The translations under genes were made by a program, and so were the position numbers. A DNA stretch of 64,000 nucleotides from Microbacterium testaceum StLB037 (GTDB lineage: Bacteria; Actinomycetota; Actinomycetes; Actinomycetales; Microbacteriaceae), in assembly GCF_900104345.1 (NCBI RefSeq), contig NZ_FNJN01000004.1, positions 124,802-188,801 of the forward strand, given 5' to 3'. Below, piece after piece: positions 2,279-58,945 of the stretch (the first letter of the stretch is position 1; each line of letters starts with the position of its first letter). The notes below the pieces were generated by a model. The model worked only from the letters and a program-made list of their open reading frames with translations. It was not told the DNA's origin and ran no database searches.

Positions 2279-3268
2279 TCACCGATCGCGGTGATCCTCG
2301 GGGTGCAGGCGCGGGCCGCGGCGCGGTTCGAGCGCAGAGCCGGCATAGATCAGACGGATGACGCGCTGACGGTGCCCGGCGAACGGCTCGAGCAGCTCGA
2401 GCATGCCGTCGTCGTCGGTGCGATGCCCGGTGAGGGCGAAACCCACCTGATGGGAGAGATGGTAGTCGCCGACGCTCACGGCATCCGGATCGCCGAAAGC
2501 ACGGATCCGCGTCTCGGCGCTCGTCCAGATGCCCACCCCGCGGAGGCTGATGAAGACGCGATCGCGGGCCTCGCCGTCGACGGCCGCCTCGGCGGCACGG
2601 ACGATGGAGGCCCCCCGGCGCGACGTCTCGACGATGGTGCGCGACTGCGGCGGCTCGAGACCCGCGCGATGCCACGCCCACGAGGGGACGAGGCGCCATC
2701 CGTCGACGTCGGGAGGAGCGAACATCGGCCGAGGGGTCGGACCGGGAGCGCGCTCGCCGTACCAGGTGACGATGCTCCGCCAGGCGGAGAAGGCCTGCAT
2801 GCTCGTGACCTTCTGCTCCATGATGGCGCTGACCAGCGCATCGAAGACGAGGTCGGTGCGGCCGATACGGAGGTCGGGGTGCCGGCGATGCCACTCGGCG
2901 ACGGACGGATGCCGCGACGCGTCGAAACCGTCGGGATCGTCGTCGCGACCGCACAGCGCGGGCAGTTGGTCGAGAGCCCACTCGGCTCCCGGCCCCCACG
3001 CCGCGGCCTTGACCGCACCGCCGACGCGCATGCGCAAGGCGAGGGTGGCGACCCCGAGAGGGGTGCGACTCACCCGCCAGACGACGCCCCCGGCCGGGAG
3101 CGGCTGCGAGGCGAAGTACGTGGGGTCGTTCGCACCGTGACGCTGTGCCGCGACGGCACGGCCGATGTCGACCGGACGGGCGGGGCGGTACTCCGACTCG
3201 ATCGGGTCGCCCGCGGGAGCGGCCGATTCACGCGGCGCGTGATGCGCGCGGACTCCGATCGACCTCAT
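2279..3268 (-). CDS. HhH-GPD DNA glycosylase (3-methyladenine glycosylase 2 / AlkA-like)
   Basis: This 329-residue protein of the HhH-GPD superfamily should excise alkylated bases from DNA as the first step of base excision repair. The helix-hairpin-helix is SLRGVGIWTSAE (241-252), and the catalytic aspartate is D268 in SVGDYHLSHQVG. The helical lobe includes DLVFDALVSAIMEQKVTSMQAF (139-160). No iron-sulfur cysteine cluster is present, which fits the AlkA side of the superfamily rather than MutY/Nth. The ATG at 3268 has a TAGGGT -10 hexamer 6 nt upstream. Neighbouring genes do not suggest a DNA-repair operon. Confidence 0.85.
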   Translation of the reverse strand: MRSIGVRAHHAPRESAAPAGDPIESEYRPARPVDIGRAVAAQRHGANDPTYFASQPLPAGGVVWRVSRTPLGVATLALRMRVGGAVKAAAWGPGAEWALDQLPALCGRDDDPDGFDASRHPSVAEWHRRHPDLRIGRTDLVFDALVSAIMEQKVTSMQAFSAWRSIVTWYGERAPGPTPRPMFAPPDVDGWRLVPSWAWHRAGLEPPQSRTIVETSRRGASIVRAAEAAVDGEARDRVFISLRGVGIWTSAETRIRAFGDPDAVSVGDYHLSHQVGFALTGHRTDDDGMLELLEPFAGHRQRVIRLIYAGSALEPRRGPRLHPEDHRDR

Positions 3269-3274
3269 GCCGAC

Positions 3275-3280
3275 ACCCTA
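3275..3280 (-). promoter_or_regulatory. -10 element of glycosylase gene (leaderless)
   Basis: TAGGGT, 6 nt before the ATG at 3268. Confidence 0.5.
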
Positions 3281-3331
3281 CGTCCGAGCGCCGACATCGC
3301 GGCATCCGCTCCCGCAGAGCGGGAAGAGGCG

Positions 3332-4054
3332 TCAGAACCGGTCGGGCGAGGGGGTGCCGTGTCCGTAGCGGATCGACACGTCGGCGTGGCGGTCGAAGCG
3401 GTACCCGACGCCGCGCACGGTGCGCACGATGTCCTCGTACACGCCGAGCTTCGCGCGCAGGCGCCGCACGTGCACGTCGATGGTGCGCTCGCCCGGGGCG
3501 TCATCGTCGGTCGAGCCCTCCCAGAGGGATGCCACCAGCTCGGTGCGCTCGATCGTGCGGCCTTCGCGCAGAACGAGGTACTGCAGCAGCTCGAACTCCT
3601 TGAACGTGAACGCAGCGGACTCGCCGTCGATGAGCACGCGCTTGCGCGAGATGTCGACCACGACGCCTCCCGGCGCGCGGTCCTCTTCGGCGGGCTCGTC
3701 CTTGGTGCGTGCGATCGCCGACGGCTCGTGCAGGGCGAGACGCACCACGTCCACGTCGCGGCCACCGGACCCGACCGGGGCGAGGGCGACCGTCGCGTAG
3801 GTCTCGGCGGCGGGGGCCAGCTCGCCGAGCGTACGGCGGAGGGCTTCGACGAGAGTACCGAGGCTGACGCCGGCGGCGGCGGCCTTCGCCTCGTCGATGC
3901 CGACGTAGAGAGCGAAGCCCCGCGGGGCGGTGGTGGCGGGGGCGGCGGGGCGAGCCGCAGGGGCCGACGCTGCGGTCGCGTGGGGAGCGGCGTCGCGGGC
4001 GGCGGGACGGGCGGCGGCGGTGGAGGGGCGGTCGAGAACGGCGGAGATCGACAT
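3332..4054 (-). CDS. Winged-helix (OmpR/PhoB-type) transcriptional regulator without receiver domain
   Basis: This 240-residue protein ends in a complete OmpR/PhoB-type DNA-binding domain (about 131-225): strand VVVDISRKRVLIDG, helix FTFKEFELLQYLVL, recognition helix ERTIDVHVRRLRAKLG (189-204) and wing IVRTVRGVGYRF (209-220). There is no phospho-acceptor receiver. Instead the N-terminus is a 45-residue Ala/Pro tail, then a compact domain (47-112) of unknown function that may sense a signal. AAGGA (4065-4069, minus strand) lies about 10 nt before the ATG. A cysteine-rich leader peptide gene on the same strand ends 177 bp upstream, suggesting attenuation by cysteine or sulfur supply (inference). 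Confidence 0.8.
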   Translation of the reverse strand: MSISAVLDRPSTAAARPAARDAAPHATAASAPAARPAAPATTAPRGFALYVGIDEAKAAAAGVSLGTLVEALRRTLGELAPAAETYATVALAPVGSGGRDVDVVRLALHEPSAIARTKDEPAEEDRAPGGVVVDISRKRVLIDGESAAFTFKEFELLQYLVLREGRTIERTELVASLWEGSTDDDAPGERTIDVHVRRLRAKLGVYEDIVRTVRGVGYRFDRHADVSIRYGHGTPSPDRF

Positions 4055-4063
4055 GAGGAGAGA

Positions 4064-4092
4064 ATCCTTGGGTGTGTGAACCCGGGCGTCAA
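4064..4092 (-). promoter_or_regulatory. Possible second promoter close to the winged-helix gene
   Basis: TTGACG (4087-4092, minus strand) is followed after 17 bp by AAGGAT (4064-4069). The -10 match is weak and the same bases could be the ribosome-binding site, so this is tentative. If real, it would bypass the leader peptide. Confidence 0.25.
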
Positions 4093-4231
4093 CGAGAGCG
4101 GGGTTCGACGGGAGGGAGAGGCCGGAGGGCCGGAGTGCGGTGCCGGGGTACGCGTGATCGACGCGGACGTCAGGCGGCCGAGGGACGACGTCGGTGTTCA
4201 GAAACCGAGGTGGTCCGAGCGAGGGTCGCTG

Positions 4232-4333
4232 TTAGCGGCACATTCGACAACACAGCGCAACGCGGCCGGGCATCATCATGCCGGCAGTCCTGTTCGCCTC
4301 CCGGGCGGACAGAGAACGCGCGTTGAGAGTCAT
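4232..4333 (-). CDS. Cysteine-rich leader peptide (putative attenuator uORF)
   Basis: A 33-codon ORF ending LCCRMCR, with three cysteine codons among its last seven (TGT, TGT, TGC). The ATG at 4333 coincides with the predicted transcription start: a -35 TTGACG and -10 CATAAT with an 18-bp spacer leave exactly 6 nt before the ATG, so the uORF is leaderless. Polycysteine leaderless small ORFs are known in mycobacteria as cysteine-responsive attenuators of downstream sulfur genes. The downstream gene here is the winged-helix regulator. The 177 bp between them contain a weak GACGTC/GACGTC pairing but no T-run terminator, so coupling through translation or Rho is more likely than a classical hairpin switch. 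Confidence 0.7.
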   Translation of the reverse strand: MTLNARSLSAREANRTAGMMMPGRVALCCRMCR

Positions 4334-4339
4334 GGGGGG

Positions 4340-4369
4340 ATTATGACGCAGCGTGTCCGACCTCGTCAA
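4340..4369 (-). promoter_or_regulatory. Promoter of the leader peptide
   Basis: -35 TTGACG (4364-4369), 18-bp spacer, -10 CATAAT (4340-4345), then six C residues and the ATG. This is the best sigma-70-type promoter in the window and places +1 on the A of the start codon. Confidence 0.75.
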
Positions 4370-4476
4370 ATCGGCATGGATGCCGTCAGGGGCGCGCATC
4401 ATGCTCAGTTTCGCGGCCTCCCGGGCCGTCGCACCGTGCACTCTGCCGCGACGGAGCCCGTCCATCGAGGGCGGCG

Positions 4477-4482
4477 TAGCCT
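4477..4482 (+). promoter_or_regulatory. -10 element of GNAT-like gene
   Basis: TAGCCT, 7 nt before the ATG at 4490. Probably leaderless. Confidence 0.4.
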
Positions 4483-4489
4483 CTCCGTC

Positions 4490-4789
4490 ATGGCTGACCT
4501 GCTTTTCGCCGACGACAAGACCGCGTCCCGCTACACGTTGCACGATGGAGACGACCTCGTCTCGGTCCTCGATTATCGCGACGACGGGCGCACGGTCGCC
4601 CTGACTCGCGCCTTCACCATCCCCACCTTCCGCGGACACGGCTACGCCGCCGTGATCACCGAGCGCGCGGTGGACGCGATCGAGGCGGCGGGCGACCGCG
4701 AGATCCTGCCCGTGTGCTGGTACGTGGGGGAGTGGTTCGAAGCCCACCCCGAGCGGGCGGCCATCCTGCACCAGCGACCCGCCTCCTGA
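4490..4789 (+). CDS. Small YjdJ-type GNAT acetyltransferase-like protein
   Basis: This 99-residue protein has the short GNAT fold of the YjdJ/Gcn5-related group (COG2388-like). RAFTIPTFRGHGYAAVITERAVD (about 43-65) is the CoA-binding loop and helix, and REILPVCWYVGEWFEAHPE (about 72-90) is the conserved C-terminal motif with the cysteine and histidine region. Proteins of this type bind acetyl-CoA, but their acceptor is unknown. The ATG at 4490 gives a full-length domain, and a TAGCCT hexamer lies 7 nt upstream. It is divergent from the leader peptide/regulator unit. Confidence 0.8.
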   Translation: MADLLFADDKTASRYTLHDGDDLVSVLDYRDDGRTVALTRAFTIPTFRGHGYAAVITERAVDAIEAAGDREILPVCWYVGEWFEAHPERAAILHQRPAS

Positions 4790-4880
4790 ACCGAGCGCCT
4801 ACGCAGACCGCGTCCGGCCGTCAACCCCTGCCGGGTCCTCCGCCCGCCCGACGAAGCTGGTCGGGTCGAAAGGGGAAGTC

Positions 4881-5090
4881 ATGACAGACGACCGCGACCT
4901 GCCCGAGGGTGTCATCAACGCCGACCCTCCCGGTGGGTGGGAGAGCGGCGCCGTCGCCGACGGTGAGACCGCAGAGCAGAACGAGCACGCGAAGGGCTCG
5001 CCGCGCCTCAACGACGCGGAGCCCTCGGACCCCATCGAGGGGGATGCCGCCAGCCAGGGCATCGACCCCGACCTGAGCACGGAGGACTGA
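4881..5090 (+). CDS. Small acidic hypothetical protein
   Basis: A 69-residue, highly acidic, Gly/Asp/Glu-rich polypeptide with no hydrophobic segment and no recognised family; it is probably intrinsically disordered. The ATG at 4881 is preceded by an AGGGGAAG ribosome-binding stretch. Its stop lies 1 nt before the next gene's ATG, so the two are almost certainly co-transcribed and translationally coupled. Codon use (GC at third positions) matches the neighbours, supporting a real gene. Confidence 0.6.
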   Translation: MTDDRDLPEGVINADPPGGWESGAVADGETAEQNEHAKGSPRLNDAEPSDPIEGDAASQGIDPDLSTED

Positions 5091-5091
5091 C

Positions 5092-5409
5092 ATGACGGAT
5101 GAGACTCGGGCGCCCCAGCCCACCAGCGGTCCCGACGGGGGAGCAGACGCCGCGGACTCGGTCGGCGGCGCTGTGCACCGCGATCGCAAGATCTCGCGAC
5201 CCGACGAGCAGTCCGAACCGGCCATGGACACCCACCCGACCGACGACGAGGCCCGCATCGCCGGCGTCGTCGTGCAGACGCGCGCCGACGTCGGCGACAA
5301 GAGCGAGGAGCGCATCGCCGACGTGCTGCGTCAGCGTTTCCGCGACATCGGCCTCGACCTGGGCGACGACCGCATCCGCGCCCTGGCCGCGGAGGTCTCG
5401 GGCTCCTGA
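5092..5409 (+). CDS. Small hypothetical protein, acidic N-terminus
   Basis: This 105-residue soluble protein has a disordered acidic first half and a helical second half (about 55-102) containing RIADVLRQRFRDIGLDLGDDRI. I recognise no family. GGAGG (5081-5085) lies 6 nt before the ATG. It is the second gene of a two-gene unit with the 69-residue protein and is followed by a strong hairpin terminator at 5422-5456. Function unknown. Confidence 0.6.
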   Translation: MTDETRAPQPTSGPDGGADAADSVGGAVHRDRKISRPDEQSEPAMDTHPTDDEARIAGVVVQTRADVGDKSEERIADVLRQRFRDIGLDLGDDRIRALAAEVSGS

Positions 5410-25131: not shown

Positions 25132-26566
25132 CGATGGGCCTTTCCACGGGGAGCGCGTACAGCTGCGACCGGGAGGACGCAGCCACTGCCGCAGCGAGTG
25201 TCACTGTACCAATGCGCCCCATGAACATCGTGGCGGCCATGACGTACTTGGCGGCCTCGGGAAGCTCGGCGGTGAGCCCCGTCGACAGGCCCACCGTGGC
25301 GAAGGCCGAGACGACGTCGAAGAGCACGTGTTCGATCGGAGCGTCGGTGATCCGGCTGATGGTCACGGTCGAGATCGCGACGATCGTGGCCCCCCACGCG
25401 ACGACGGAGAGCGCGACGCGCTGCACGTCGCTCGGGATGCGGCGGCCGAACGCCTGCACCGACGGGCGCCCCTTCGCCTCCGAGAACACGGCGAGGGCGA
25501 GGACCGCCAGCGTCGTGACCTTGATACCGCCCGCGGTGGAGGCCGAACCGCCGCCGACGAACATGAGCATCGAACCGACGATGAGGGTGGCGCCGTTCAG
25601 ATCGCCGATATTGATGACGCTGAATCCGCCCGACCGTGTCATCGCCGAGAGGAAGAAGGCCTGGAACGTGGTGTCCCACGCATCCATGCTGCCGAATGTG
25701 AGGGGGTTGTCGTATTCCAACAGCAGAATGACGCCGGCACCGGCGAAGAACAGCACGACCGTGGTGATGATCGTGAGCTTCGCGTGCAGCGACCACAGGC
25801 GGAACCGCCAATAGTGGCGCCACAGCGTGAAGATGACCGGGAATCCGATCGAGCCGAGGAAGACCCCGGCCATCAGCACGGTGAGCAGGTAGTAGTCCTG
25901 CGCGAAGGGCGTGAGGCCGTCGGCGTTGGGGACGAAGCCGGTGTTCGTGAACGCCATCGCCGCGTAGTACGGCGCCTCCCACAGGGCCACGAGCGGATTG
26001 ATCCCGCCGATGATGAGCGAGGGGTAGATGAGGACGGTCAAGCCCGCCTCGATGACCAGGGTGGACAGGGCCACCGTCCGCAGCAGCTGGCCGACCTCGC
26101 CGAGCCGGACGGTCTGGCCCTCGTTCACCGGCCCGCCGTGGACCCGCAGGGGGTTGCTGTCGCCCGCGGCGATCAGCTTGGCGCGCAGCCCGAGGCGTTT
26201 CGAGATGACCAGGCCGAGGATCGAGGCGAGGGTCAGGACACCCAGGGCGCCGACGTTGACGCCGATGTAGGTGATGACGCGCCCCAGGGGCGAGAAGTCG
26301 GAGTACATGTTCAGCGTCGACAGGCCCGTCACGCAGATCGTGGACACCGCGGTGAACAGAGCGTCGGCGAAGGCGATCCGTTCGCCCGTCGCAGACGCCG
26401 CGGGCAGCGAGAAGAGCGCGGTGAACAGCGCGATGAGCGTGACGAACACGAGCACCGCGAATCGCGCGGGTGAGGCGGTCGTCAGGTTGCGCAGACGATC
26501 CCATGCCTCGTAGGCGATGCGACGCAGTCGCACGGCCAGTCGAGCCTCGTTCGGCGTCGCCGCCAT
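25124..26566 (-). CDS. K+ uptake membrane subunit, TrkH/KtrB family
   Basis: This 480-residue membrane protein belongs to the superfamily of K+ transporters with four pore-loop repeats. The selectivity segments are visible as STICVTGLSTL (about 76-86), MAFTNTGFVP, LSAMTRSGGFSV and SAFATVGLSTGL, each with the key glycine. It works with the RCK subunit encoded downstream with an 8-bp overlap. The ATG at 26566 follows AAGGGAG. It is probably Na+- or H+-driven, as in KtrAB, but the ion cannot be read from sequence. Confidence 0.93.
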   Translation of the reverse strand: MAATPNEARLAVRLRRIAYEAWDRLRNLTTASPARFAVLVFVTLIALFTALFSLPAASATGERIAFADALFTAVSTICVTGLSTLNMYSDFSPLGRVITYIGVNVGALGVLTLASILGLVISKRLGLRAKLIAAGDSNPLRVHGGPVNEGQTVRLGEVGQLLRTVALSTLVIEAGLTVLIYPSLIIGGINPLVALWEAPYYAAMAFTNTGFVPNADGLTPFAQDYYLLTVLMAGVFLGSIGFPVIFTLWRHYWRFRLWSLHAKLTIITTVVLFFAGAGVILLLEYDNPLTFGSMDAWDTTFQAFFLSAMTRSGGFSVINIGDLNGATLIVGSMLMFVGGGSASTAGGIKVTTLAVLALAVFSEAKGRPSVQAFGRRIPSDVQRVALSVVAWGATIVAISTVTISRITDAPIEHVLFDVVSAFATVGLSTGLTAELPEAAKYVMAATMFMGRIGTVTLAAAVAASSRSQLYALPVERPIVG

Positions 26567-58225: not shown

Positions 58226-58945
58226 GTGAGCAGCGACCCCAACCGCGCCGATCTCGGCAAAGACCCGAAGCGCGTCAGCGGAATGTTCGACCAGGTCGCC
58301 GCGGCCTACGACCGCACGAACTCCGTGCTCAGTCTCGGAAACGACCGCTTCTGGCGCGTCGCGACGCTGCGCGCGGTCGCTCCGCAGCGCGGGGAGCGCA
58401 TCCTCGACCTGGCCGCCGGCACCGGCACCTCGTCGATGGCGTTCGTGCCGAGCGGGGCCCACGTGGTCGCCGCCGACTTCTCGCGCGGCATGATCGAGGA
58501 GGGACGCCGCCGTCACGGCGACGTGCCGAACCTCGAGTTCGTGCAGGCCGACGCCACCGACCTGCCTTTCGCCGACGGCGAGTTCGACGCCGTGACGATG
58601 TCGTTCGGTCTGCGCAACGTCATCGACCCGCGTCGGGCCCTCCGCGAACTCCGCCGCGTGACCCGCCCCGGCGGGCGCATCGTGGTGTGCGAGTTCTCGC
58701 ACCCGCCGTCCCGCGCGTTCAACGGTCTCTACCGCTTCTACAACGACCGGGTCCTCCCGATCGTCGCGAAGGCCGTCAGCTCGAACGCCGAGGCCTACGA
58801 CTACCTCAACGAGTCGATCCGCGACTGGCCCGACCAGCCCACTCTCGCCGGATGGATGAGGGATGCCGGATGGGATGACGTGGCCTACCGCAACCTCACA
58901 TTCGGCATCGTCGCGCTGCACCGCGGCATCCGTCCCGCTTCTTAA
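58226..58945 (+). CDS. menG: Demethylmenaquinone methyltransferase
   Basis: This 239-residue SAM-dependent methyltransferase of the UbiE/MenG family carries out the last step of menaquinone synthesis. N-terminal [23 protein letters not shown] motif [15 protein letters not shown] (about 59-73), [29 protein letters not shown] and the C-terminal [12 protein letters not shown] are typical. It starts GTG at 58226. The side-chain synthase gene follows. Confidence 0.95.

Follow-up and report, generated by a model that had tools for sequence, protein, structure and literature searches.

Polycysteine leaderless small open reading frames (sORFs) are known from mycobacteria, as set out in the accessible part of Shell 2015 (PMC4633059). 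The mycobacterial cysteine leaders of Canestrari 2020 are described in the accessible portions of PMC9031893, PMC13236596, and PMC9094748, and in PMC13236596 they are presented as a case of translation attenuation. For the cys and cbs operons of Actinobacteria, poly-Cys leaders without terminators were reported and Rho was suggested in 2005 (PMC1262725, sections available). In Streptomyces lividans TK24, the available text of a reannotation from 2021 lists a leaderless metL, seen by RNA-seq, in front of the methionine importer metNIQ; its peptide ends in CMCRRMCAF, and the mode of termination is left unclear there (PMC8079986). No description of the leader treated here was found among the titles and abstract openings returned by searches of an open-access library.

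The upstream open reading frame (uORF) in question is located on the minus strand of 64,000 nucleotides of Microbacterium testaceum StLB037, the whole stretch that was analysed and that is herein called the window. Its anatomy is collected in Table 1. The two promoter hexamers are separated by 18 nt, and 6 nt lie between the −10 hexamer and the ATG (4333–4331). This is the sole 10/12 sigma-70–type match of the 64 kb, 9/12 being reached by three others, and a search over 2.4 kb returned one such promoter against 0.1 expected. The transcript is predicted, from the promoter sequence, to start with the ATG itself or with the adjoining base. The peptide tail reads LCCRMCR, and the uORF matches no family in Pfam and NCBIfam scans. 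A classical attenuator with an intrinsic terminator, meaning a G+C hairpin followed by a U run, was not found before the regulator; the number of terminator-like sites in 3000–5400 is zero, and Rfam gives no match for the whole window at the gathering threshold or for 4000–4450 at an E value of 5. The initial annotation of this DNA had placed a 33-codon ORF at the predicted +1 of the best promoter of the window, followed by a 177-bp spacer without clear intrinsic terminator, and the sequence and the terminator scan agree with it.

Table 1 Features of the leader and of the regulator gene, in positions of the window
Feature	Position	Strand	Remark
−35 hexamer TTGACG	4364..4369	minus	10/12 together with −10
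−10 hexamer CATAAT	4340..4345	minus	predicted +1 is the uORF ATG (4333) or the adjoining base
Leader ORF, leaderless (predicted)	4232..4333	minus	33 codons plus stop, peptide MTLNARSLSAREANRTAGMMMPGRVALCCRMCR
Regulatory codons TGT TGT CGA ATG TGC (Cys-Cys-Arg-Met-Cys)	4238..4252	minus	a single codon separates them from the stop
Core codon pair CGA-AUG	4241-4246	minus	within the regulatory codons of the uORF
Spacer from uORF to regulator, candidate Rho-loading region	4055..4231	minus	177 nt, 83 C / 39 G
AAGGA, candidate Shine-Dalgarno sequence of the regulator	4065..4069	minus	AGGA conserved here in an alignment of 26 relatives
Regulator, 240 aa, ATG at 4054, stop ending 3332	3332..4054	minus	PhoB/GlnR-type winged helix

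The leader accompanies its regulator throughout the family. A uORF is found 5' of the regulator orthologue in 145 of 145 family loci with enough upstream DNA, 144 of them by script and L061 by motif. Herein, 149 family loci were fetched (L004–L072 and L089–L168), of which four lack usable upstream DNA: L134, L162, L045 with its match at contig base 100, and L069 with 2214 bases. The assignment of the family to the Microbacteriaceae rests on 80 named records among these loci, including L133 (Actinomycetota only) and L162 (Cellulosimicrobium). Since the loci are best-scoring matches and may repeat a genome, distinct sequences were counted. A TTGAC or TTGCC −35 element ends 29 to 31 nt before the uORF ATG in all 117 distinct upstream sequences, with a distance of 31 nt in 81, 30 nt in 35, and 29 nt in one. 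An ATG at, or almost at, the 5' end of the mRNA would produce such a constant distance; the leaderless architecture assumed in the initial annotation is consistent with the comparison (30–31 nt in 116 of 117), the +1 being predicted from the promoter. The uORF varies between 25 and 37 codons in the family, and whatever its length, the tail is read in the frame of the ATG nearest to the promoter. The script that chose the ORFs scored TTGAC promoters and C-R-M tails upward, so that the counts of uORFs, tails, and promoters lean towards both; this lean is limited by a profile search and by the fact that no judgeable family locus is without a uORF.

For the profile search, 29 distinct uORFs were combined and 150 family genomes were searched. 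Of the 147 genomes with the regulator, 115 have a match (E up to 0.012) that lies 0 to 900 nt upstream of this gene and on its strand. All matches with E <1e-4 adjoin the regulator, except for that in G164 (E 3e-10), which lies near a contig end in a genome where the regulator was not found; the three remaining matches elsewhere are second, weak ones in G120, G140, and G107. With almost all matches standing beside the regulator, there is essentially one leader per genome, and it is tied to one gene. The profile found no uORF beside the regulator in 32 of the 147 genomes (e.g., G063, G068, G071, G085, and G088), of which 19 are of 2.0 Mb or less and one, G181, has the regulator at a contig end. 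Since GC-rich DNA contains many short ORFs, the uORF might be taken for a chance reading frame between two genes. The presence in 145 of 145 judgeable loci is, however, more than chance, and together with the 115 of 147 genomes and the fixed promoter spacing it refutes such an origin, to which we assign practically no probability.

Beyond the family, the leader becomes more variable. In sister family f6 (presumed Micrococcaceae), 27 of 43 loci contain C-(x)-R-M near the uORF end, several of them as CCC-R-M, and 16 are without a C-x-R-M uORF. The f6 loci of genus g271 (L214, L218, L222, and L228) exhibit, by eye, a promoter-like stretch and a seemingly leaderless ORF without any Cys; in this genus the leader may be retuned or decayed. 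In f7 (presumed Brevibacteriaceae), 12 loci were compared (L087, L088, L207, and L241–L249), and nine of them carry a leaderless ORF that contains Cys close to its end, mostly as CVRD, CVRG, or similar, with VCCCL in L241 and GCCCCL in L249. The exceptions are L246, which has no terminal Cys, and L244 and L245, which have no clear uORF.

The most constant element of the leader is the codon pair CGA-AUG, as opposed to the Cys cluster around it. In all 109 distinct uORFs of the family, the Arg codon is CGA and is followed by ATG, and the codon before CGA encodes Cys (TGT in 78, TGC in 31). The second codon before CGA is a Cys codon in 103 of the 109, and the codon after ATG is Cys in 105 (TGC 74, TGT 31) and Ser in four. 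The same CGA ATG is present in 27 of 27 C-x-R-M uORFs of f6 and in 30 of 30 leaders before metN in a genus presumed to be Streptomyces. The Arg codon played no part in selecting the uORFs for these counts, which applies to the 109, the 27, and the first 27 metN leaders. By comparison, CGA makes up 104 of 4014 Arg codons (2.6%) in the regulator genes of the family, a count with a small error from the truncated loci L045, L061, and L069, which were read at the wrong place, and one of 81 in three genes of the window. The last seven residues hold three Cys in 97 of the 109 uORFs, two in 11, and four in one; Met and Cys together account for seven or eight of the last 15 residues in 92. In most relatives, the tail Cys-Cys-Arg-Met-Cys is preceded by one further Met.

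These numbers bear on the cysteine response proposed in the initial annotation. A lack of conservation of the Cys codons in relatives had been named there as refuting it, and the codons before CGA (109/109) and after AUG (105/109) are in fact conserved. A response to Cys supply alone, however, does not explain the constant CGA-AUG, and the Cys-rich tail is rich in Met as well and recurs with the same CGA-AUG before metN. Hence, Met or both amino acids may be sensed, and Cys alone is not established as the sensed amino acid. In most bacteria, CGA is decoded by inosine wobble. For yeast, the available part of PMC6379720 describes codon pairs with CGA, among them CGA-AUA, as both slow and conserved, and it names the I-A wobble as a cause. 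By analogy with these yeast measurements, CGA-AUG is probably a built-in slow codon pair that makes this step of translation critical.

The motif was also looked for elsewhere. Within the window, TGYCGAATG occurs additionally at 25690-25698 (+) and 58899-58907 (−), with 0.6 occurrences expected in the window; the former was considered as another leader and rejected, being inside long open frames and not leader-like. In the genome of this strain, TGYTGYCGAATG is found at three places, two of them inside long open frames, and TGYTGYTGYTGY gives 23 matches versus 75 for its reversed control. Base pairing between the CGA-AUG string and the spacer was likewise dismissed: CATTCG is found in some spacers and is absent from that of the window.

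The S. lividans leader metL carries a similar tail in a different genetic context. The printed metL peptide was searched in 394 genomes of the class, and matches with E <1e-5 were obtained only in genus g171, which was taken as Streptomyces from a 96% match to the S. lividans peptide; the best 30 matches are treated here (L274–L303). CGA ATG is contained in all 27 leaders first parsed and in the remaining three, in L278 without Cys beside the CGA, whereas only 17 of 792 Arg codons of the metN genes downstream are CGA in this genus presumed to be Streptomyces. For two 100-residue ORF fragments located downstream, the best match is MetN (TIGR02314). The tail at the 30 loci is mostly C-M-C-R-M-(C/R)-x-x and resembles that of the Microbacterium uORF; compared with most of these loci, the printed S. 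lividans tail CMCRRMCAF contains one Arg more. The −10 element is of the TTTACT type (by eye), and the spacer is C-rich here too, with a median C/G of 1.61 at 27 loci. In a comparison of metL with the Microbacterium uORF without composition correction, the median real score is reached by eight of 20000 full shuffles and by 1462 of 20000 shuffles in which the tail is kept; once composition is corrected for, shuffles score as well as metL. The likeness is therefore confined to the tail, and a shared tail signature and architecture are claimed rather than common descent.

The regulator downstream consists of a PhoB/GlnR-type winged helix (residues 145–220) and an N-terminal part (about residues 45–110) that matches no Pfam family; a Pfam receiver domain is not found. 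This agrees with the orphan OmpR/PhoB-type DNA-binding protein of the initial annotation. By sequence and fold, the best PDB match of the DNA-binding domain is GlnR (8hml, E 1.4e-17), an actinobacterial member of the OmpR/PhoB family with which the regulator shares the motif R-T-[IV]-DVHVRRLRAKLG. The match covers only this domain; regulators of the GlnR family carry an (atypical) N-terminal receiver domain, which has no Pfam counterpart in the regulator. A structure model from an input with 44 close relatives is poor (mean pLDDT 63, pTM 0.43) and, at low confidence, suggests only a short alpha/beta part at the N terminus, too weakly for assigning this domain to a type. The nearest orthologues among named genomes are 98% (uncultured Microbacterium MAG), 95% (Microbacteriaceae MAG), and 93% (M. 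testaceum) identical. Within the genus, 56 of 59 genomes have an orthologue (E 1.2e-60 or better), and the remaining three genomes are 44–88% complete. It is likewise present in 147 of 150 family genomes and in each of 100 genomes that were searched in a sister family.

A sulfur-responsive regulator, as the initial annotation had it, finds no backing in the neighborhood. No sulfur gene was recognized beside the regulator in 12 genomes (by eye from translations), and PF01507 (PAPS reductase/ATP sulfurylase small subunit and relatives), found in 25 of 150 family genomes and not in that of this strain, is not associated with the uORF, which is present in 17 of 25 genomes with and 98 of 125 without it (p = 0.30). 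Control of sulfur genes by the regulator is a conjecture. Judged by this domain, the family seems to be mostly without assimilatory sulfate reduction; it may thus depend on reduced sulfur, which would fit a sensor of Cys or Met.

Several further features were observed around the regulator. In f6 (L073–L081 and L240), a pair of TTGTTAC-like repeats, spaced by about 20 bp, lies across the promoter from which the leaderless uORF is read. GlnR-type operators consist of GTNAC repeats, and autoregulation is hence a lead, not a result. Three of 12 genomes have a tadA-like ORF, recognized by eye, at no more than about 2 kb from the regulator (L265 814–1185, L272 7035–7514, and L273 6807–7274); tadA encodes the tRNA adenosine deaminase that is needed to read CGA. 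Also by eye, a upp-like gene (uracil phosphoribosyltransferase) lies near the regulator in L263, L264, L266, L268, and L273. In two other families, a small Cys-containing protein, which we take to be DUF1540-like, is encoded beside a distant regulator homologue (L268 4951–5355 and L269 4674–5078); that of L268 ends in ...HVSECSVASCGYNHDGCHA, and that of L269 is similar.

The spacer between uORF and regulator is C-rich and G-poor. Within the 150 nt after the uORF stop, C exceeds G in 127 of 127 distinct loci, with a median C/G of 1.68 versus 0.98 in an upstream control and 1.14 in the gene. The spacer of the window has a C/G of 2.13, which is reached by 0.09% of the 177-nt windows of the 64 kb. 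Together with the lack of an intrinsic terminator, this composition resembles a Rho-dependent switch, which is plausible at the spacer from its base composition. Of the attenuation proposed in the initial annotation, the missing hairpin terminator stands, and a Rho-type switch suits the C-rich, G-poor spacer better.

With moderate confidence, we regard the ORF at 4333–4232 as the leader peptide of a translation-coupled attenuator sensing the supply of sulfur amino acids. That it acts as a leaderless leader-peptide attenuator is very likely, and that Cys and/or Met are the sensed amino acids is likely, as we infer from the tail. In the proposed mechanism, transcription would start at or beside the ATG, as the promoter suggests, and a 70S ribosome would begin directly on the mRNA end. 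It would move fast until it reaches the tail, where the Cys, Cys, Arg (CGA), Met, and Cys codons are read just before the stop. With plentiful Cys and Met, the ribosome would finish and leave, the spacer would be exposed, and Rho (or a competing fold) would switch the regulator off. If charged Cys- or Met-tRNA runs short, the ribosome would halt at the tail and shield the start of the spacer, so that RNA polymerase could continue and the regulator would be made. The putatively slow CGA-AUG, flanked by Cys codons and mostly located two to three codons from the stop, would bring the ribosome to a halt at the border of the spacer.

The same tail could also be an arrest motif (C-R-M with CGA-AUG), acting through the nascent chain or the codon pair, whose signal is not amino-acid supply but, for instance, the general speed of translation, a drug, redox conditions, or the inosine state of tRNA-Arg(ICG). 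A parallel is given by the whiB7 uORF, which answers to ribosome stalling. The pair being more constant than any Cys (109/109, 27/27, and 30/30) agrees with such an arrest, as do the tadA-like ORFs at 2 kb or less from the regulator gene of L265, L272, and L273 and the slow, conserved CGA pairs of yeast (PMC6379720, part available). However, this slowness was measured in yeast and not in these bacteria, and the richness in Cys and Met, the CCC(C) tails of L241 and L249, and the metN context favor sulfur amino acids; an arrest of this kind appears unlikely to us. Somewhat less unlikely, yet still a minority view, is translational attenuation without Rho, in which the uORF RNA would pair with the regulator start and a stalled ribosome would change this pairing. 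The mycobacterial cysteine leaders are so described in the accessible part of PMC13236596, and the inverted repeats GAACCC/GGGTTC and GCGTCGATCACGC recur in spacers. Moreover, CATCAT is contained in the regulator start region of 40 of 124 distinct leaders, and in 23 of the 124 (including L017, L023, L063, L109, and L156), 11 nt of uORF codons 18–22 (CATGATGATGG, part of a Met-Met-Met run) are perfectly complementary to the regulator start CCATCATCATG. In 18 CATCAT leaders of the 62 tested, the predicted probability of an unpaired start codon averages 0.11, compared with 0.40 when the upstream leader is shuffled. This is a subgroup only: the start codon of the other 44 is as open as in shuffled leaders (0.46 versus 0.43), and the accessibility of the Shine-Dalgarno sequence over all 62 is 0.36 versus 0.33 in shuffled controls. 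The longest perfect uORF complement to the regulator start is only 5 nt in the leader of the window, whose AAGGA is predicted to be paired, apparently in a small local AGGA/TCCT hairpin without the uORF. Folding of the whole leader across 26 leaders showed no convincing covariation, with a consensus covariation term of +1.45. Since the hidden start is limited to the CATCAT subgroup and the leader of the window is outside of it, translational control is not the general rule; within the subgroup it is plausible from these fold predictions.

Some of the conservation is carried by the RNA itself. In 59 Microbacterium-type uORFs, third codon positions are hardly more variable than first and second ones (entropy 0.35, 0.33, and 0.40), and codons 9, 10, and 12–14 are invariant while codon 11 between them changes its amino acid. 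This places the RNA under constraint and would suit a reading in which nucleotide conservation chiefly reflects an RNA or DNA element (a fold, a protein site, or a polymerase pause) with the open frame being secondary. Against it, RNAalifold on 45 uORFs gave −4.23 kcal/mol and no convincing covariation, the corresponding term being only −0.75 and three of 15 pairs having a sequence changed on both sides, and Rfam lists no match. The Cys codons, in addition, interchange between TGT and TGC, and the tail keeps the frame of the leaderless ATG despite length changes. We hold such an element to be quite improbable as the main explanation.

A leader-peptide attenuator sensing sulfur amino acids, if true, would mean that leaderless attenuation of the cysteine type, known from mycobacterial sulfur operons, also reaches a transcription factor in other actinobacterial families. 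It would also turn CGA-AUG into a named invariant codon pair that is directly testable as a stalling signal, and it would give a first clue to the function of a regulator that 147 of 150 family genomes and all 100 sister-family genomes searched possess. A wider proposal, offered tentatively and with more doubt than belief, joins these observations. Herein, CGA-AUG before the stop would be the unrecognized signature of widespread actinobacterial leaderless leaders, with the inosine-read CGA making the decoding of AUG and the flanking Cys codons rate limiting and thus creating a sharp sensor of Met- and Cys-tRNA charging. In Streptomyces, this sensor might control Met import; in the Microbacteriaceae and the sister family, it might control a GlnR-like regulator whose N-terminal domain is new. 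This regulator would then be a hitherto undescribed master regulator of sulfur starvation in bacteria that mostly seem to be without sulfate assimilation.

Compared with the described systems, the poly-Cys leaders of the cys and cbs operons share Cys codons near the stop, the lack of a conserved terminator hairpin, and the suggestion of Rho with this uORF, as far as the available sections go; they differ by preceding enzyme operons and by being a prediction only. The metL leader precedes the Met importer gene metN, whereas the Microbacterium uORF precedes a regulator. The mycobacterial polycysteine sORFs are leaderless and conserved, carry the Cys cluster just before the stop, and are located upstream of a presumed target; this uORF shares the conservation, the Cys cluster, and the location, and it is predicted to be leaderless as well. 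In contrast to them, the gene downstream is here a transcription regulator as opposed to an identifiable sulfur gene, and the tail is C-C-R-M-C with an invariant CGA-AUG and additional Met as opposed to a plain Cys run. The best reading of the locus is a variant of the mycobacterial polycysteine leaders that would respond to Cys and/or Met and control a GlnR-like regulator, with the invariant CGA-AUG pair as its most notable feature.
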